Assembly (NCBI GenBank): GCA_947564645.1
Contig: CANOCU010000040.1
Span: 1-32,718, forward strand
Direction: 5' to 3'
Source: an uncultured Lachnospiraceae bacterium
GTDB taxonomy: Bacteria > Bacillota > Clostridia > Lachnospirales > Lachnospiraceae
DNA: 32,718 bases
Shown here: in pieces, positions 2,360-30,437 of the stretch
How positions within the stretch are numbered: the first letter of the stretch is position 1
Layout of the letters: every line of letters begins with the position of its first letter
Made by a program: the position numbers and the translations under genes
Notes under the pieces: generated by a model
What the model was told of the DNA's origin: nothing
What the model saw: the letters and a program-made list of their open reading frames with translations, nothing else
Databases searched by the model: none

Positions 2360-3391
2360 TCAATCTCCTCCCTTTTCCGCATTCGCTTCGGCCCATGTGT
2401 AGCATCTGGAATACTTCCCTTCACCGGTCTTATACATCTTCCTGGTCTTCTCGTAGCTGGCCTCACACTTGCCTGCCTGATACACCGGGCACCTGTCCTT
2501 GAATTTACAGTATTCGAATAGCTGTGTCAGATCCGGCGGCGTCCCGTGAATGGCCTTTCTCTGAGTCACATCATCGTGCAGCGTCGGAATGGCATCCACC
2601 AGTCCTCTCGTATAAGGATGCATCGGGTTGCCAAGCACATCTTCCGTTCTGCCGTATTCAACGATCTCTCCTCCGTACATGACCGCGATCCTGTCCGCAA
2701 TGTTCGACACCACTGCGATATCGTGCGTCAGGAATACCATAGTGATCTTAAAGCCCTTCTGGATATTGGAAAGAAGCGGCAGAATATAATACTGCGTCAC
2801 CACATCCAGCGCCGTGGTCGGCTCATCCAGAATGATCACCTTGGGATCCAGCACAAGACTTAAGGCGATCAGCACTCTCTGCTTCATGCCGCCGCTGAGA
2901 TGATGCGGATAGTATTCCATAACCGCCGTGTCCAGACGCACATATCCCAGCACTTTCCTGATCTTCTGGTCCATCTCCTCCTGCTTCGCATCAGGATCAT
3001 GCGCAAGGATCGTCTCGTAGAAATGCTCCTTGATCCTCAACACCGGATTCAGGGCGTTCTGCGCCGCCTGGAAAACTGTGGAAATCTCCTTCCAGCGGAA
3101 CTCCGTCTCCTGCTGCGGTTTCATTTTCAGAATATCCACCTTGGCATGCTGATACTCCGAATAGTACGTGACCGACCCGGAGGAAACTTTGCCCGGCACA
3201 TTGACCATATTCAGGATCCCGGAACACAAGGTTGACTTACCACTTCCGCTCTCACCGATGATGGCAATCGTCTCATTTCTGTAGATGTCAAAAGATGTAT
3301 GGTCGCATGCCCGCAGAACACCTCTCTCCACCTGAAAGTCAATGGAGAGGTCTTTTACTTCTATGATCACATTCTCTCTTATATTTTCCAT
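2360..3391 (-). CDS. Oligopeptide/dipeptide-type ABC transporter ATPase (OppD/DppD-like)
   Basis: This is a 343-residue ATPase of the peptide-class importer. It has Walker A GESGSGKST, signature LSGGMKQRVLIALSL, Walker B VIILDEPTTALD, the His switch FLTHDIAV, and the C-terminal cysteine-rich motif CKFKDRCPVYQAGKC typical of OppD/OppF proteins. It would form the heterodimeric motor with the next gene. The ATG at 3391 is preceded by a GGGGGAG ribosome site. It begins 10 bp after the permease stop and ends 1 bp before the second ATPase, so it is part of one operon. The transported substrate cannot be read from the ATPase. The glycosidase-rich surroundings suggest that oligosaccharides are as plausible as peptides. 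Confidence 0.9.
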   Translation of the reverse strand: MENIRENVIIEVKDLSIDFQVERGVLRACDHTSFDIYRNETIAIIGESGSGKSTLCSGILNMVNVPGKVSSGSVTYYSEYQHAKVDILKMKPQQETEFRWKEISTVFQAAQNALNPVLRIKEHFYETILAHDPDAKQEEMDQKIRKVLGYVRLDTAVMEYYPHHLSGGMKQRVLIALSLVLDPKVIILDEPTTALDVVTQYYILPLLSNIQKGFKITMVFLTHDIAVVSNIADRIAVMYGGEIVEYGRTEDVLGNPMHPYTRGLVDAIPTLHDDVTQRKAIHGTPPDLTQLFEYCKFKDRCPVYQAGKCEASYEKTRKMYKTGEGKYSRCYTWAEANAEKGGD

Positions 3392-3401
3392 TTGTCTCCC
3401 C

Positions 3402-4304
3402 CTATCTGCGCAGCCTTGGATTCATGGCTTCATCCAGTCCCATTGCGAATAAGTAGCATCCCAGCTGGAACAGCAGGATTCCCATGATCGGCGTCATGAA
3501 ATTCACGATCGGCTGCAACCCGCCATACAGCAGGGAGGTCTGCGCGATCGCCATCTGCAGCATCATCCCCCAGTGTGTTCCATTGATCGGCACAAGCCCC
3601 AGCACCATCAGGTTGACCGAAGAAACGATCGCCCCTCTCATAATGGAAATAAAGTTGATCGCCACAAAGGAAACAATGTTAGGCAGTACGTCCTTCGTAA
3701 TGATATCGATATTGGAAATACCCATGATCCTGCTGGCCTCGATAAAATCCTTGTCTTTCAGCGTCAGCACCTGTGTCCGGATCGCTTTCGCAAGCGCCGC
3801 CCAGGACCAGATTCCAAGCACCAGGCCGAACAGAATATTATTGCTCACGTTGATGACCATCGACAAGACCATGATGACCGGGAACTGCGGCATGGTCAGC
3901 ACGATATCCGTGATCATCATCAACACCGTATCCACTTTGCCGCCCAGCAGTCCGGCCGTGATCCCTACCCCGCAGGCGATGACCACCGCGAAGATGCCCG
4001 CATACAGAGCCACCATCAATACCGTCCTGGTTCCCTTGATGAACATGGAAAAGATATCCCGTCCCGCATAGTCCGTTCCCAGCCAATGCTGCGCAGACGG
4101 CGCCCGCAGCCGAATGCCAAAGTTGCTCACCGGGTCTGCCACCAGCAGCGGACCAAAGATCGCGATCAGGATAAACAACGCTACGATGATCAAACCGACC
4201 CTTGACATCTTATTTCTCCATATGATCTTGAAGAAATCCTTTATGCCTTCCGTCAGGGTTCCCTGCCTGTCGGCAGAGCGCTTTATCGTCATTTCTTTTT
4301 TCAT
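3402..4304 (-). CDS. ABC transporter permease (OppC/DppC-like)
   Basis: This inner-membrane permease of the peptide/nickel class is 300 residues. The N-terminal cytoplasmic stretch (about 1-35) precedes the first membrane segment RVGLIIVALFILIAIFGPLL. The family signature near AGRDIFSMFIKGTR and the EAA-loop sequence DKDFIEASRIMGISNIDII, which contacts the ATPases, are clear. It ends in a typical NPRLRR tail. It partners with the frameshifted permease at 4322-5288. An ATG at 4304 and tight spacing to both neighbours support operon expression. Confidence 0.88.
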   Translation of the reverse strand: MKKEMTIKRSADRQGTLTEGIKDFFKIIWRNKMSRVGLIIVALFILIAIFGPLLVADPVSNFGIRLRAPSAQHWLGTDYAGRDIFSMFIKGTRTVLMVALYAGIFAVVIACGVGITAGLLGGKVDTVLMMITDIVLTMPQFPVIMVLSMVINVSNNILFGLVLGIWSWAALAKAIRTQVLTLKDKDFIEASRIMGISNIDIITKDVLPNIVSFVAINFISIMRGAIVSSVNLMVLGLVPINGTHWGMMLQMAIAQTSLLYGGLQPIVNFMTPIMGILLFQLGCYLFAMGLDEAMNPRLRR

Positions 4305-4321: not shown

Positions 4322-5288
4322 CTATTTCTCTCTCAGCCTGGGATTCAGCCGCTTGTTCAAGGCATCCGCCGCCAGTCCCGAGATCAGCACCATCATAATG
4401 ATCATCATAAACATGCCCTGCATCAGCGGATAGTCTCTTCTGCTGATCGCCGAATTCAGATAAAAGCCCACCCCGGGATAGACAAACAGATTCTCTATAA
4501 CAGGCGATCCGCCAAACAGCAGGCCGAAGGAGATCGCCAGACTGGTGATCTGGGGCAACATGGCATTCCTGCCAAGATAAGTAAACAGGATCCTGTTTCT
4601 GGACAGGCCCCTTGCCCGCGCATAATTCATGTAATCTTCTCCCAGAAGCCCGATACAGATAGCCTTCATTCCCATGATCCAGGACGCCACGGTCGTCAGG
4701 AAATAGCAAAGCACCGGCAGACAGGCGTGGTACAACACATCCAGAATGAAAGTCAGGTTCCAGCCGGGTATGGATTCCGAATCATACGCACCGCGCGCCG
4801 GGAAGATACCCAGTCCGATCGAAAAGCACGCCACCAGCAGATAGGCCACGATATAATCCGGTATGGAACCGAAGACAGCCTGATACCCCGTCCCATACCT
4901 TACTGCGTTTCCAGGCGATGAACAGTCCGACGATATTGCCCACGATGAAAGACAGCAGCAGCGAGATCGAACAGACTAAAAGTGTCCATGGCAGGGCGCC
5001 CAGCACGATATTGACCACAGAGTCCTTGTAAGACATGGACTGTCCCATATCACCGTGCAGCAGCTGTCCGATATAGTTTACGAACTGCTGCATGACCGGC
5101 ACTTCCGGATCGTAATTCAGCGCGATCTTCGCTCTTTCATAAGCCTGCTCATACGGCAATTTGTCCGTAGTCATATACTGCTGCGTCAGCGTTTCGACCG
5201 GATCGCCCGGCATGGCTTTTACGATAAAAAACACCAGCACCAACGATATGATCAAAGTCAGAAAGGTTTTTATTATTTTTTGTGCCAT
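4322..5288 (-). pseudogene. ABC transporter permease (OppB/DppB-like), frameshifted
   Basis: This is the second permease of the importer, split by one extra base. Residues from MAQKIIKTF to KVWDG are in one frame. The remainder, from YQAVFGSIPDYIVAY to the end RLNPRLREK, is in the next frame. Removing one C from the CCCC run at 4886-4889 (GGGG on the coding strand) restores a continuous 321-residue protein of normal family length with all membrane segments and the EAA loop. The start ATG at 5288 has AAGGAG six bases upstream. Because everything else is intact, this is either a very recent inactivation or a homopolymer error in the sequence. I see no slippery heptamer suggesting programmed frameshifting. 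Confidence 0.82.
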
Positions 5289-5309
5289 AGCATTCTCCTT
5301 ATCAATGAT

Positions 5310-5340
5310 CCGTGCCGCCGGCACATGTCAGGCAGCACGG
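5310..5340 (-). promoter_or_regulatory. Intercistronic stem-loop between binding protein and permease
   Basis: A 10-bp stem (5310-5319 with 5331-5340, one G-U pair, 11-nt loop) lies just after the solute-binding-protein stop and before the permease start. There is no U-tract after it on the minus strand. It therefore fits an mRNA-stabilising or partial-attenuation hairpin better than a full terminator. Such elements often raise binding-protein levels above those of the permeases; that role is inferred. Confidence 0.55.
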
Positions 5341-5349
5341 AATCCCCGT

Positions 5350-7242
5350 TTACTTTATATAATACATCTCTCCGCTGTGGATCAGCTTACCAAGCACCAC
5401 ACTGGAAGTGCCGGACCACACGAAATCCGAAACCGCATCACCTGTCTCAACCGCCGGCAGAGACAGCTTGTCGTTGTGGATCCTGTAGATAAAGCACTGA
5501 TCCGTAACCGGTATGTACCACAGATTATCGTTATGGAATTTGGCTAGTTTCAGCGCCGCCGCAGAGATCTCCTCATCCGTGTTGGCCAGTTTCAGTTCGT
5601 TGACAACATCCTCATAATGGAAATCTTCTCCCGTAACGTCATCCTTCCAGACAAGTTTCTCTCCCGACTCCGGGAAGGTCAGATTCATTCTCTTTCCATA
5701 CCACCAGATGCCGGCATATACCTCGTAAGGATGCTGCGTACTCTGCGCGCTGCCGAAACCGTCAATGATCATATGCGCCTGGCCAGATTGGGAATAATCA
5801 CTGTACGCGCTGACTTCTTTGGACACAAAGGAGGCTTTGATGCCGAATTCCTGCAGCATATTTGCGGCTGCCTCTCCCATGATCAATTCTACCTGATAAC
5901 TGCCGATACCACCGATGATGATCTCCGGAACAGCCCCGGTCTCGTCTACCCACTGACTGCCCTGTTTCGTCCATCCAACGGATTCCAGAAGCTGTGTCGC
6001 CTTTTCCAGATTCAGGTCGTATTTCGTCATGGAAGCCAAGTCTTCCTCTGACAGGTACTTGTCACGCAGGGATAGCGGCATGGCCGTCGCATACTGATCC
6101 GCCACGATCATACCCGGTTCAGAAGCCGGAGCGATCTGTTCCGTATCGATCACATAGGCGATCGCCTGTCTGACTTCCAGTTTATCCGTAGGCGCCTTGT
6201 TGACATTCATGCAGAAGCCCCACTGGGAAAAAGCCGGAATCCCCACCTGGCGGATGGTGTCCTTATTCTGCTTCGCAACCGTGAGGGCCAAATCCGTTGA
6301 GAGGCCGCCCGCTTCCAGATCCATCTCCTCATTCTGCACCGCGATCTGGAATGCCTCCGCGCTGGACTGGCGGATACCCACGATCGTATCGATGTCAAGT
6401 TCGTTCCTGTAATTCGGATTGGCTTTGAGCGTGATCTCATCGGACGTCACCGTCTCGATCCTGTAAGCGCCGGATGTCTTGATCTCGGTCATCTTCGGCA
6501 GATAGTTATTGCAATCCAGCGTCGTCTCATCAAAAAGCTTCTGGCCTTCCTCCGTCATCTCATAGTCGCCTTCGTCGTTCAGTTCCCTCATATTCTCAAA
6601 GATATCCTGGTAAACCGCAGCCCACTGTCCGTACTCGGAAGAAGGGAACATCAGGAGTGATTTCAGGAGGTAAGTCACGATCAGGCTCGAATTCTTGGTA
6701 TAGGTGACCTGCACCGTCAGATCGTCCAGTTTCTCTATGGATGCCGCATAGATCAACAGCTGTTGGTTTGACAGATCCATATACATGTTGTTCAGCAGTT
6801 CATCCGCGTTGATCTCAGACCCGTCGCTGTATTTCAGTCCTTCCTTCAGCTTCATGGTAAGCACCTGATCTTCCCAGGTATAGCTTTCCAGAAGCTGCGG
6901 TTTAAAGGTTGTTTCCGGCTGTGAAGAATAGTCGCAGAGCGTCTCATAGATCAGCGGCTGCAGTGACCAGTTCGGACCGCCCTCCACGTATGGATGTCCA
7001 TGTCCTGCCGGCTCCGGTGTAAACTCCAGGAGAGTCGTCACCGTCTTTTTACTGTCGTCCTTCTCCCCCTCCAGCTTTGTGTTCGTCAGCTTCGTCTCCA
7101 CCGAAAGGGCCGTTTCCACCTCTGTTGCGCCGCTCTCTCCTCCGCCTTCCCCTGATGCCGCATTGCCACAGCCTGTCAGCAGCGTTCCCATCATGGCAAC
7201 TGCCAACATGATTCCTGTGATAGATTTTACTCTTTTTCTCAT
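5350..7242 (-). CDS. Extracellular solute-binding lipoprotein, family 5 (OppA/DppA-like)
   Basis: This protein of about 630 residues is the substrate receptor of the importer. It begins with a lipoprotein signal peptide (positively charged MRKRVKS, then a hydrophobic run) ending in the lipobox LLTGC, so it is anchored outside the membrane by the Cys. A Ser/Gly/Glu-rich linker follows. The family 5 fold then includes the conserved segments QPLIYETLCDY, MKLKEGLKYSDGSEINADEL and VRQAIAYVIDT. I prefer the ATG at 7242 (AAGGGA about nine bases upstream) to a GTG two codons earlier. It is the first gene of the operon, preceded by an AT-rich operator-like region and followed by the adjacent LacI-type gene's terminator. 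Ligand is unknown; family members bind peptides, opines, nickel or oligosaccharides. Confidence 0.88.
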   Translation of the reverse strand: MRKRVKSITGIMLAVAMMGTLLTGCGNAASGEGGGESGATEVETALSVETKLTNTKLEGEKDDSKKTVTTLLEFTPEPAGHGHPYVEGGPNWSLQPLIYETLCDYSSQPETTFKPQLLESYTWEDQVLTMKLKEGLKYSDGSEINADELLNNMYMDLSNQQLLIYAASIEKLDDLTVQVTYTKNSSLIVTYLLKSLLMFPSSEYGQWAAVYQDIFENMRELNDEGDYEMTEEGQKLFDETTLDCNNYLPKMTEIKTSGAYRIETVTSDEITLKANPNYRNELDIDTIVGIRQSSAEAFQIAVQNEEMDLEAGGLSTDLALTVAKQNKDTIRQVGIPAFSQWGFCMNVNKAPTDKLEVRQAIAYVIDTEQIAPASEPGMIVADQYATAMPLSLRDKYLSEEDLASMTKYDLNLEKATQLLESVGWTKQGSQWVDETGAVPEIIIGGIGSYQVELIMGEAAANMLQEFGIKASFVSKEVSAYSDYSQSGQAHMIIDGFGSAQSTQHPYEVYAGIWWYGKRMNLTFPESGEKLVWKDDVTGEDFHYEDVVNELKLANTDEEISAAALKLAKFHNDNLWYIPVTDQCFIYRIHNDKLSLPAVETGDAVSDFVWSGTSSVVLGKLIHSGEMYYIK

Positions 7243-18728: not shown

Positions 18729-20146
18729 CTACTGCTCCTTCTTCACCCTCTCGATCACACAGCTATGTGGCTTATCCTTCTTCTCACGCTCATAATTGAT
18801 CCCCACAAGCAGAATCTCGCCTGCATACCCCGCAAGCGCCTGCGTATACTGCCGGTCTTTGATCTGCCGGATGGCGGCTTCCGCATTTTTATCATATTTC
18901 AGTTCTACTACCAGTGCCGGCTTCTCCGTGTGTGGCAGCGGCAGGAACACGATGTCCGCAAAGCCCTTCCCGGCCGGCAGCTCCCGGATCAGCTTGTAAT
19001 CCTTCCTTGCACTGTAGTAGGCAAGCCGCTCACGCTCATGGCGTTCTCGAATTCCCCGATGATTTCTTTATTCGGGATAAAGGCTTCCTTCGTCTCCGCG
19101 TCATAGCCAAGATAGCCGATATGGATCAGCAGCGTCAGCACATCATCCTTTATCCGGAAACTGCGCATATCATTCTGGAAGCTTAACGTATTTACCTTCA
19201 CCCGCTCTCCGCCCAGCATCTGCACAATATCCGCCTTCAACCCGTCATGATCCATGTCGATATAGGTTTTGAGCGCATCATAGGTCTCCGTGGATGTCCA
19301 GTAATTCGCGCATTTTCCACGGCGCACAGCCTCCACCACGGATTTCGGATTGTAGATATGCCGGAATCTGGTGAAGCGATACCCGTCGTACCAGCTTCCC
19401 ATTTCCGTAAAATCCATGCCGTACCGCTCACAGAGCGCTTCTACCTCTCCTTCCGTGAATCCGGTATATTCCTCAAAATCAAACTGATCTGTCATGGAAT
19501 ATTCTGTGAACATATTGAGCGCCGAGTGCACGCCATACTTTTTGACCGGCAGAATGCCCGTTATATAGGCCAGCGCCACATAGGGCTGGTCCTTTAACAG
19601 ATTCCGCAGGAAATCAAGATACTGCTTCTGTAAGTCTTCCGATTCCTGCCTTTCCCGCATCACACAGTCCCACTCGTCGATCAGGAAGATAAACTGCTTA
19701 TCCGTATTCACATAGATTCTCTCAAGCGCTTCTGCAAGGCCCGTGGTCCGTTCCGAAATCAGATCCCCATAACTCTCCCGCAGTTCCGCAAGGACGACCC
19801 GCTCCAAATATTCCGATACGTCCTCTTCTCTCGCCCTGATCAGAAACTGCTGCATATTCAGAAAGATCACGTCATATCTGTTCAGATACTCTCTGAAGGT
19901 CGCCTCTTTCTCTATCCGAAATCCCTTGAATAAATCCGCAGAATCACAGCCGCGGCTGTAATAAGCCGCAAGCATCTTAAGCGCCATGGATTTGCCGAAG
20001 CGCCTCGGTCTGCTGACACAGATATACTGCTGCTCCGTATTCAGATATTGGTTGGTCTTCGCGATCAGCCCCGTCTTATCCACGTAGATCTCGGAACGGA
20101 TCGACTGCCAGAAGCCCCTGTTGCCCGGATTCAGATAGATTCCCAT
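18729..20146 (-). pseudogene. DUF1703-type AAA-ATPase/PD-(D/E)XK protein, internally deleted
   Basis: The intact N-terminal part (from MGIYLNPGNRGFWQSIRSE) is an AAA-ATPase-like domain with a Walker A-like RPRRFGKSMALKML and Walker B-like FIFLIDEWDCVM. The C-terminal PD-(D/E)XK-like nuclease domain is in another frame at 18729 to about 19027 (LAYYSARKDYKLIREL and ALVVELKYDKNAEAAIRQIK). At about 19027-19035 the sequence jumps from EFENAMSVSG directly to LAYYSARK. Comparison with the paralogous fragment at 30243-30437 shows that about 50 codons are missing and the frame is shifted. Start ATG 20146 has GGAGG upstream. A promoter TTGATT-17-TGATAA (20197-20225) is visible. The truncated product would lack the nuclease domain. 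Confidence 0.85.
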
Positions 20147-20424
20147 TAAGCTTAATCCTCCCTACGATTTCCGCATCGCTCTTTTCTCTTTTCAGTTTAT
20201 CACATTTTCCTACTTTCTTAATCAACTTTATCATATTTTACATATTTTTCGGTCAGCCTCTATATTTTGGCACGGTCAGCGCAGTAAATGCGCAGCCCTG
20301 GACTGATCTGTCTTTGTAAAAAACCATTTCGCGCAGAATATAACTGTAGTATACTTGAGATAATGATAAAATTCAGATGTTCATCATTTCTGCAAAGGAT
20401 ATCGTGAGTATAAGCTTCCTCATA
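20147..20424. other. Intergenic region between divergent genes
   Basis: This gap holds the minus-strand promoter of the DUF1703 locus (-35 20220-20225, -10 20197-20202). It also holds an AT-rich stretch with possible plus-strand promoter elements (TATACT and GATAAT around 20350-20365) for the gene at 20529. I see no coding potential or RNA gene in it. Confidence 0.5.
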
Positions 20425-20490
20425 ACAAATTTCTGTTTCCGACTCTTGCAGGAGCCATATACGGAAGCACCTGCAAGGCCGAAAACGAAA
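20425..20490 (+). repeat. 66-bp palindromic repeat, copy 1
   Basis: The sequence is a long imperfect palindrome: TTTCTGTTTCCG and CTTGCAGG on the left pair with CCTGCAAG and CGAAAACGAAA on the right. An inverted copy lies at 27955-28020, identical at 61 of 66 positions. It resembles REP/MITE-type extragenic repeats. Here it is in the leader of the MEMO/AMMECR1 gene, and the 29-bp leader motif begins in its last eight bases. Confidence 0.9.
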
Positions 20491-20511
20491 CTTCTAATGT
20501 CGTTAACTATA
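20483..20511 (+). repeat. 29-bp leader motif, copy 2
   Basis: Matches 12219-12247 at 25 of 29 positions (core TTCTAATGTC, then ACTATA). It ends 17 bases before the ATG of the MEMO/AMMECR1 gene and overlaps the end of the 66-bp palindromic repeat. A following AAAGGA serves as ribosome site. Confidence 0.75.
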
Positions 20512-20528
20512 GAAAGGACAGTTCATAT

Positions 20529-22001
20529 ATGAGTATTCTCGCAGGCTTTATGCTGCCCCATCCGCCGCTGATCGTTCCGGAGATCGGTAAAGGCCAGGAG
20601 CAGGCAATTCAGGCTACCACCGACGCATATCATAAGGCAGCACAGGAGATCGCCGGGCTGAAACCGGAAACGATCGTACTGCTTTCGCCACACCAAATCC
20701 TGTACACGGACTATTTCCATATCTCTCCCGGCAAAAGCGCCGTCGGCGATTTCGCGCAATTTCGCGCAAAACAGGTATCCTTAAAGGTTTTCTACGACAC
20801 GGAATTTGTAAAGGTCCTGGAAGGGCTCGCCGAATCGAGGGATCTGCATGCCGGAACGCTGGGCGAACGTGAGAAAAAGCTGGATCACGGAACCATGGTG
20901 CCTCTCTATTTTGTCAATCAGTATGATACGGACTATCAACTGGTGCGGATCGGCCTGTCAGGCTTCTCCCTCGCCGACCATTACCGCCTGGGCCAGTGCA
21001 TCCGGGAGACTGCCGGAATGCTGGACCGAAAGGTGGTGATCATCGCCAGCGGGGACCTGTCCCATCGTTTGAAAGAGGACGGGCCTTACGGATACCGGAA
21101 AGAAGGGCCGGAATACGACGCCCGGATCATGGATGTCATGACCCGGGGCGCCTTTGGGGAGTTACTTCAATTCGAGGAAAGCTTCTGCGATAAAGCGGCG
21201 GAATGCGGCCACCGCTCCTTCACTATTATGGCAGGCGCCTTTGACCGGACCGCCATAGATGTAAAGCGGCTTTCCTACGAAGGCCCTTTCGGCGTGGGCT
21301 ACGGCATCTGCACATACCATGCGCGGGGAACAGATGAAACCCGGAACTTCCTGGAGCAATTCGAAGCGTCCGAGAAACAACGGCTTCTGGCACGGCAGGC
21401 AAAAGAAGACCCCTATGTGAAGCTTGCCCGGCACACCATCGAGACATATATCCGCACCGGAAAACGCCCCCAGGTTCCGGAAGATCTGCCGGAAGAACTA
21501 TACAACCGCCGGGCGGGCGCCTTTGTCTCCCTGAAAGAGGACGGCAGACTGCGGGGCTGTATCGGCACGATCGCAGCGGTACACAATTCCCTTGCCGAGG
21601 AAATCATCCACAACGCCGTCAGCGCATGTTCCAGCGATCCCCGATTCTCTCCCGTGGAACCGTGGGAGGTGGAACGTCTCACGATCAGCGTGGACGTGCT
21701 GGGAGATACCGAGCGGATCTCCTCTCCCAATGAACTGGATCCGGAGCGGTACGGCGTCATCGTGACAAAAGGCGGCAGACGGGGACTTTTGCTGCCAAAC
21801 CCCGGTCTGCCCGGGGGACAGCGTACAGTGGTGCATGCATACCTGACAAGTGATTGTCTGCACCAATTATGGTCAGATCACCTCCCTGGCCCTGGATCCG
21901 ATCGAGAAAAAACCGCTGAAAAATTTCCGTCCGGGAAGCCGGATTCTGTCCGTGGGAAGCTACGGCTGCAATCTGCGCTGCCCTTTCTGCCAGAACCATG
22001 A
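20529..22001 (+). CDS. MEMO-AMMECR1 fusion (AmmeMemoRadiSam proteins B and A), damaged 3' end
   Basis: Residues 1 to about 265 form a MEMO-like domain of the class III extradiol dioxygenase (LigB) fold. It has FMLPHPPLIVPEIG, SPHQ, LDHGTMVPLYF and ASGDLSHRL carrying the likely metal-site His residues. Residues about 290-424 are an AMMECR1 domain (GAFVSLKEDGRLRGCIGT and YGVIVTKGGRRGLLLPN). The combination with a radical SAM gene defines the AmmeMemoRadiSam set, whose function is not established. After LLLPN (about 21800) the normal AMMECR1 ending is absent. The frame reads through an inverted piece of the next gene and then out-of-frame radical-SAM sequence to 22001. The last 65 or so residues are therefore artefactual, and A-domain function is doubtful. 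Confidence 0.85.
   Translation: MSILAGFMLPHPPLIVPEIGKGQEQAIQATTDAYHKAAQEIAGLKPETIVLLSPHQILYTDYFHISPGKSAVGDFAQFRAKQVSLKVFYDTEFVKVLEGLAESRDLHAGTLGEREKKLDHGTMVPLYFVNQYDTDYQLVRIGLSGFSLADHYRLGQCIRETAGMLDRKVVIIASGDLSHRLKEDGPYGYRKEGPEYDARIMDVMTRGAFGELLQFEESFCDKAAECGHRSFTIMAGAFDRTAIDVKRLSYEGPFGVGYGICTYHARGTDETRNFLEQFEASEKQRLLARQAKEDPYVKLARHTIETYIRTGKRPQVPEDLPEELYNRRAGAFVSLKEDGRLRGCIGTIAAVHNSLAEEIIHNAVSACSSDPRFSPVEPWEVERLTISVDVLGDTERISSPNELDPERYGVIVTKGGRRGLLLPNPGLPGGQRTVVHAYLTSDCLHQLWSDHLPGPGSDREKTAEKFPSGKPDSVRGKLRLQSALPFLPEP
21801..21848 (-). other. Inverted 48-bp segment of the radical SAM gene
   Basis: On the minus strand these 16 codons read CQVCMHHCTLSPGQTG. This is the conserved cysteine/histidine N-terminus expected at the start of AmrS-type radical SAM proteins. 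The rest of that protein continues on the plus strand just downstream (IVCTNYGQITS from 21853). The segment therefore lies inverted between the two genes, with sequence missing on both sides. Confidence 0.75.
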
Positions 22002-22593
22002 AATCTCCATGGCCAGAGAAGCCGATGCCGGCAGCCTGTATAGGGAACCCGAGCACCTGGCGGATATGGCGCTGGAATTGCAAGAGCGCAACGCCGGGAA
22101 TATCGGCATTGCCTACACCTACAACGAACCCCTCGTGGGATGGGAATATGTCCACGATACGGCCCAGATTGTGAAGGAATACGGCATGGTCAATGTGCTG
22201 GTGACCAACGGGACGGCCTCCACGGAAGTACTGGAAGCGCTGCTGCCCTATATCAATGCCATGAATATCGATCTGAAGGGCTTTCGGCCGGACTATTACC
22301 GGATGCTGGGCGGCAGTCTCAATACGGTGAAAGCCTTCATCGCGCGGGCAGTCAAAGACTGTCACGTGGAACTCACCACGTTGATCGTGCCCGGCGAAAA
22401 TGACGCCCTGGAAGAGATGGCCAGAGAAGCGTGCTGGATCGCGTCTTTGAGTCCTGAAATACCGCTTCACATCACACGTTTCTTCCCGCGCTATCATATG
22501 ACCGGTCATCATCCCACGGACATTCGGCGGCTCTATCAGCTGGCGGAGACTGCAGAACGATATCTGAAGAACGTTTATGTGGGAAATGTGTAA
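21850..22593 (+). pseudogene. amrS: AmmeMemoRadiSam radical SAM protein (AmrS-like), N-terminus lost
   Basis: This radical SAM enzyme retains the CxxxCxxC cluster motif (GCNLRCPFCQNHEIS) near residue 40, the GIAYTYNEPLVGWEY strand, VTNGTAS, NIDLKGFRPDYYRML and the C-terminal HITRFFPRYHM. Family members begin about 30 residues earlier with a second cysteine-rich motif. That motif is found inverted at 21801-21848, and the connecting residues are gone. The open frame can start only at a GTG at 21850 without a ribosome site, inside the damaged upstream gene. The SAM-binding core is intact, so the loss seems recent. It is convergent with the M56 gene, separated by 78 bp. That gap holds only a weak GCAC/GTGC hairpin with TTTTT at 22647-22665. 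Confidence 0.75.
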
Positions 22594-22671
22594 CTGTTTC
22601 TAAATCCGGCAGGCTTTCAAGCAAACCCCTGGCGTAGTAATTCACTGCACCTTCACGTGCTTTTTCACTTT

Positions 22672-30242: not shown

Positions 30243-30437
30243 ATATCACTCCTTCCATATGCGCCTGGTCGAGGCCCCTGGCGACACTCTGTGCATCCCC
30301 GCTTAAGGCAGCTTCCAGAAGCTTCTATGACGCTTTCAGCACACGTATGACTTCCGGCCAGCCGCTCACACTCATGGCATTCTCGAATTCCCCGATGATC
30401 TCTTTATTCGGGATAAAGGATTCGGATAGATTCCCAT
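30243..30437 (-). pseudogene. DUF1703 gene relic (start fused to an internal segment)
   Basis: From an ATG at 30437 with GGGAGG upstream, the sequence begins MGIYPN, like the start of the DUF1703 gene at 20146. It then jumps to the segment FIPNKEIIGEFENAMSVSG, which in that gene is near residue 360. A different frame continues with WPEVIRVLKAS, a TAG stop, and KLLEAALSGDAQSVARGLDQ AHME. About 350 codons are missing internally and the 3' part ends at the galactosidase start. It is a heavily deleted paralogue that supplies the segment absent from the 18.7-20.1 kb locus. Confidence 0.8.

Follow-up and report, generated by a model that had tools for sequence, protein, structure and literature searches.

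What could have put the beginning of one gene on the wrong strand, at the very point where the gene in front of it loses its end? The question is raised by a contig of an uncultured Lachnospiraceae bacterium (CANOCU010000040.1, assembly GCA_947564645.1), of which a stretch of 32,718 nt, hereafter the window, was analysed. Like other loci of the AmmeMemoRadiSam module (TIGR04335, TIGR04336 and TIGR04337), the window carries a MEMO-A fusion followed by the gene for the radical-SAM protein AmrS; unlike them, it lacks the end of A and the N-terminus of AmrS. A first-pass annotation, made from the letters alone, had described two deletions and a short inversion meeting at one junction and had proposed replication template switching as their cause. 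We favour a similar reading, with a probability of about 0.6: a complex micro-rearrangement in a single genome, most likely produced by a template switch during replication or repair, damaged MEMO-A at its 3′ end and amrS at its 5′ end.

The MEMO-A gene has lost its end and amrS its beginning

Block alignment and residue numbering refer to L032, the closest relative that the searches gave. It is a Lachnospiraceae MAG contig of 5.5 kb, on which a 460-aa MEMO-A and a 278-aa AmrS are encoded on one strand, with 144 nt separating the A stop codon from the start of amrS. In the window the MEMO (LigB-like) domain and a truncated AMMECR1 (A) domain occupy positions 20529..21800 on the plus strand, collinear with the relatives and equivalent to residues 1-424 of 460 (Pfam, tblastn), with 84% identity to L032 over this frame. 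The whole MEMO-A reading frame is 490 aa long and its homology to L032 stops at residue 424 (ORF list, tblastn); past the junction it continues on the plus strand as an out-of-frame tail of 66 aa (21801..22001) that bears no relation to A.

The LigB/MEMO domain is full length in the Pfam profile search (PF02900, positions 3-268 of 269), as had been claimed for it, and scores 24.2 against TIGR04336, slightly below the cut-off of 26. The A domain is incomplete: the AMMECR1 profile covers only positions 1-126 of 168 and the last 36 residues of the relatives (425-460) are missing by tblastn, in agreement with the earlier statement that AMMECR1 loses its ending after LLLPN. What is left of A still exceeds the cut-off of TIGR04335 (121.7 bits versus 99) and has relatives among solved structures (1zq7, 1vaj and 1wsc). 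Measured against the AmmeMemoRadiSam module, the MEMO (B) domain is present, and neither a complete A nor a complete AmrS was found.

Forward amrS sequence picks up at 21853 with IVCTNYG, residue 34 of 278 (tblastn against L032), as the first-pass annotation had described. The remainder covers residues 34-278 (21853..22593, plus strand; profile, tblastn, ORF list), and its frame is open from the GTG at 21850, the first possible start, through to the stop; no Shine-Dalgarno-like sequence was seen by eye upstream of this GTG. Against TIGR04337 (AmrS), a radical-SAM family that NCBIfam still labels hypoth_equivalog, it scores 207.8 bits, below the cut-off of 220, and the match begins at profile position 41. 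A pattern search places the retained radical-SAM motif CNLRCPFC (CxxxCxxC) at 21967..21990 on the plus strand. The predicted AmrS would thus lack its start and an accessory four-Cys N-terminus and keep its radical-SAM core motif. Among solved structures none was found to cover the lost N-terminus, AmrS matching only pyruvate formate-lyase activase, from residue 60 on.

The start of AmrS lies reversed between two deletions

Three blastn blocks relate the window to L032. Positions 20511-21801 align forward with 2983-4273 (78%), positions 21801-21858 align in reverse with 4593-4536 (58 nt, 84%, E 6e-13), and positions 21863-22592 align forward with 4637-5363 (80%). Compared with L032, about 262 nt have been lost to the left of the inverted piece, taking with them the last 36 A codons, the spacer and the opening bases of amrS. 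The inversion itself spans about 58 nt, a further loss of about 33 nt lies to its right, and on both sides the ends of the deletions coincide with the ends of the inversion. The size of the left loss is only approximate because the gap between the genes varies among relatives, ranging between a few and about 145 nt from the MEMO-A match to the amrS match in 25 aligned relatives, with the two genes touching in G077 and about 1.4 kb apart in G082. The ancestral bases, too, can be given only approximately, the nearest relative, L032, being 78-80% identical.

After 21800/21801 come 48-62 bases of the amrS start in reverse orientation, before amrS runs forward again from 21853. The minus strand of 21798-21851 encodes residues 6-23 of L032 AmrS (18 aa, 89% identical, E 6e-07; tblastn), reading QTITCQVCMHHCTLSPGQTGVWQ, which bears out the observation that the AmrS N-terminal motif lies on the opposite strand at 21801-21848. 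This stretch of the minus strand is the anchored core of the segment (blastn and tblastn against L032), holding the first three of the four Cys codons and ending at the codon of the fourth; the 48 bp attributed earlier to the inversion describe the core, and the outer limits set by the relatives are wider, at 21796 on the left and 21855-21858 on the right. The reversed short match is also present against all five other relatives tested, although in L033 it spans only 26 nt (E 0.001; blastn), and an independent whole-genome DNA search returned it in four relatives of the genus (G033, G034, G036 and G018).

Bases that fit both flanking sequences were found at either junction. On the left, 6 nt at 21796..21801 agree with both the A gene and the inverted amrS, as attested among the 25 relatives; on the right, the junction zone covers 21849..21858, and within it 4 nt (21852-21855) fit both sides according to the L032 alignment and the relatives' bases. 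A base was counted towards these overlaps if at least one of the 25 relatives has it, and the lengths were set against 200,000 random junctions per side in the same tracts: 4.0% of the simulated junctions reached 6 nt on the left and 21% reached 4 nt on the right. Counted against L032 only, the left overlap shrinks to 1 nt. Flanking microhomology, which the first-pass annotation had proposed to look for, is therefore weak (chance about 0.04 and 0.21); strong microhomology was not upheld, and the overlaps are suggestive of template switching without proving it.

The left junction sits within a new imperfect hairpin (21774-21811; 11-nt arms, 91%, 16-nt loop) that pairs A sequence with inverted amrS sequence and is probably incidental. 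The junction 30-mer was absent from viral_contigs, a collection whose negative says little.

The arrangement is absent from the relatives examined

We searched 77 genomes of the genus, the window's own included. MEMO-A was present at E 1e-20 or better in 31 of them and amrS, by strong matches, in 29: the window's own genome, 25 in which the frame stays open over 280-319 codons, G002, where the gene is broken, and G070 and G090, with partial matches. The relatives aligned were 25 with both genes on one stretch, made up of 23 genus genomes plus L032 and L033, which may overlap with the 23. In every one of them A is complete to residue 460, amrS lies on the same strand from residue 1-3, and the four-Cys N-terminal motif (CxxCx[HN]HC-x9-C) is present. 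The same complete A end, same-strand amrS start and four Cys occur in G077 and G082, outside the aligned set.

Altogether, none of the 28 relatives in which both genes are readable shares the window's arrangement, and 27 are intact at both gene ends. The remaining one, G002 (L063 and L075, G002:C5), has a complete A and an intact MEMO-A; its amrS is broken differently, lacking residues 1-73 and 163-202, with a changed frame, no four Cys and no inversion. Aligning relatives to define the breakpoints, as had been suggested, thus shows the two deletions and the inversion to be real relative to 27 of the 28. In more distant loci a loosened four-Cys pattern matched in 4 of 10 (L016, L029, L017 and L061), where L016 and L029 are overlapping stretches of one genome from another family and L017 is a related radical-SAM protein. 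It was unmatched in L013, L015, L028, L034 and L063; L054 also fails the pattern, yet four Cys are seen on reading.

Within the window's own assembly no intact second copy of the module genes was found. TIGR04337 has a single match, the window's amrS, below the cut-off, and two weaker radical-SAM paralogs lie on other contigs. The lost A tail was not found in this genome, by a query that detects it in G087 and G084, and of the AmrS N-terminus only the reversed piece was recovered, besides two chance-level matches (E 0.2 and 0.9). These absences are not final, because the genome is about 91% complete.

Such a distribution bears on whether the segment might be a programmed invertible element (phase variation), or the rearranged gene a functional one. 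Both downstream frames are open, which speaks for such a reading, but no inverted repeats bound the segment: of the seven inverted pairs listed for 21500-22200, none has arms at both ends, and the phase-variable candidate was rejected on this ground. Moreover, flipping would not restore the whole gene, since the flanks are missing, no relative among the 28 has the arrangement, and inspection by eye showed no ribosome-binding sequence before the GTG. We regard this explanation as extremely improbable.

A single template switch best fits the breakpoints

Template switches are described by a four-point model. The blastn blocks contain what a switch would leave, namely a stretch copied in reverse complement from close by, with breakpoints that coincide. 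Template switching fits best on account of this match between the limits of the deletions and those of the inversion, which is a stronger argument for one event than the microhomology is. During replication or repair synthesis, the nascent strand would have stopped near the end of A, and the stalled strand would have primed on the complementary strand within the start of amrS. Some 50-60 nt would then have been copied backwards from the amrS start before the strand returned to its original template further on, so that one event would yield both deletions and the inverted insert. The mechanism proposed at first reading is accordingly the best fit, though the microhomology expected with it is only suggestive.

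The coincidence of ends also speaks to the idea of several independent events, an inversion followed by one or two deletions. Deletions do occur here, as nearby lesions such as a 163-nt gap in the AAA-ATPase gene attest, but it would be an unlikely coincidence if, left and right alike, they stopped exactly where the inversion stops, and we consider such a series very unlikely.

An alternative that also needs just one episode starts from a double-strand break: about 350 nt would have been deleted, and the ends joined with a templated inverted filler taken from the lost stretch. End-joining is known to leave such fillers, and the inverted piece lies entirely within the interval missing from the forward order. 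Against this, Ku was not found in the window's own genome (about 91% complete) by a search that matched in the Bacillus subtilis control, and it occurs in just 2 of the 77 genus genomes. Classical Ku end-joining is less likely for that reason; Ku-independent joining may have acted instead and would give the same product. Overall, filler end-joining appears unlikely to us, and the template switch remains our preferred reading.

Age and effect of the rearrangement

The codons that remain show no extra decay. Between the window and L032, dN is 0.110 for MEMO, 0.080 for the A part and 0.124 for the amrS remainder. At near-invariant columns the window and L032 differ, respectively, at 7 and 7 of 142 in AmrS, 9 and 5 of 148 in MEMO, and 1 and 1 of 71 in A. 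Judged by these codons, amrS does not appear clearly accelerated beyond MEMO, and an old pseudogene under relaxed selection was not upheld by either comparison. Undecayed amrS codons imply that the event is recent or else an artefact, so the rearrangement, if real, would be recent. One comparison counts against a recent date: measured to 24 outgroups, dN is greater for the window than for L032 in 24 of 24 cases for MEMO, 21 of 24 for AmrS and 15 of 24 for the A part. In mean dN, however, AmrS (0.239 vs 0.226) shows no larger an excess than MEMO (0.222 vs 0.203).

The artefact would be a chimera from amplification or library preparation, or a mis-assembly, in cells whose genes are intact. Undecayed codons are equally expected from it, and the genome is split over 140 contigs. 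However, joins in de Bruijn assembly would require overlaps far longer than the 6 nt seen here, the assembly has no intact copy elsewhere, and the neighbouring AAA-ATPase gene has another lesion. Chimeras of multiple-displacement amplification form inversions with deletions at short complementarity (Lasken and Stockwell 2007, PMC1855051); they arise in vitro, whereas in the window two junctions within about 60 nt would need to have dominated the consensus of a contig. An artefact is, in our judgement, improbable.

The rearrangement would probably be inactivating, with A short of its last 36 residues and AmrS deprived of its start signals and four-Cys N-terminus. The first-pass annotation had considered both the A domain and the radical-SAM N-terminus disabled: the losses are there, but CxxxCxxC is kept at 21967, and neither A nor AmrS is likely to function.

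The module and its surroundings

G009 and G031, the genomes that match the window's downstream flank most strongly, are both without the AmmeMemoRadiSam module. In them about 130 nt separate the AAA-ATPase gene from the BlaR1-type gene, as against about 2.5 kb, including the module, in the window (empty site: window 20147-22671; L074 2362-2492; L073 19109-19238). On these comparisons the module comes and goes within the genus and, given G002, the window is not alone in losing amrS.

Other irregularities were observed along the window. The AAA-ATPase-like gene (PF09820; 18989-20146) encodes 385 aa, compared with 525 aa in G009 and G031, and has a 163-nt gap relative to both near 19020-19027, with AGCC common to the ends. 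A fragment of about 172 nt at 30252-30423 resembles part of the AAA-ATPase gene, and a 96% copy of it is present elsewhere in the genome, on contig G000:C23. On the minus strand at 4322-5324, a transport permease gene, whose downstream half matches PF00528, is divided between two frames (175 and 180 aa); the apparent cause is a frameshift, which may be real or a sequence error.

Relation to known systems and meaning

Judging by titles and the beginnings of abstracts, the literature retrieved on AmmeMemoRadiSam held no paper on the module itself. Short-range replication template switches (Walker et al. 2021, PMC7954356) likewise replace local sequence with a short reverse-complement copy of nearby sequence through two switches per event; those are from great apes, whereas the window offers a single bacterial case, in which one side has lost about 260 nt and all relatives for comparison are diverged. 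Bacterial template switching during replication is treated in work on quasipalindrome mutagenesis in E. coli (PMC6357072; PMC7202029), in contrast to which the window has no long quasipalindrome shown, only the overlap zones of 6 and 4 nt; a further report treats template switching in yeast (PMC8604942).

The locus is a new instance of a known mutation type, an ordinary gene decay with a tidy rearrangement signature. It provides a clean, well-bounded bacterial inversion with flanking deletions at one spot, in which intact relatives polarise the event, and it cautions that a wrong-strand motif can be the sign of a broken gene rather than an antisense gene. Together with the independently broken amrS of G002, the window makes a small natural test of whether MEMO-A is retained once its radical-SAM partner is gone. 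It is conceivable, although quite unlikely, that the genus sheds AmrS independently in different species but keeps the frame of the MEMO domain constrained; if true, MEMO would have a role that does not need AmrS.
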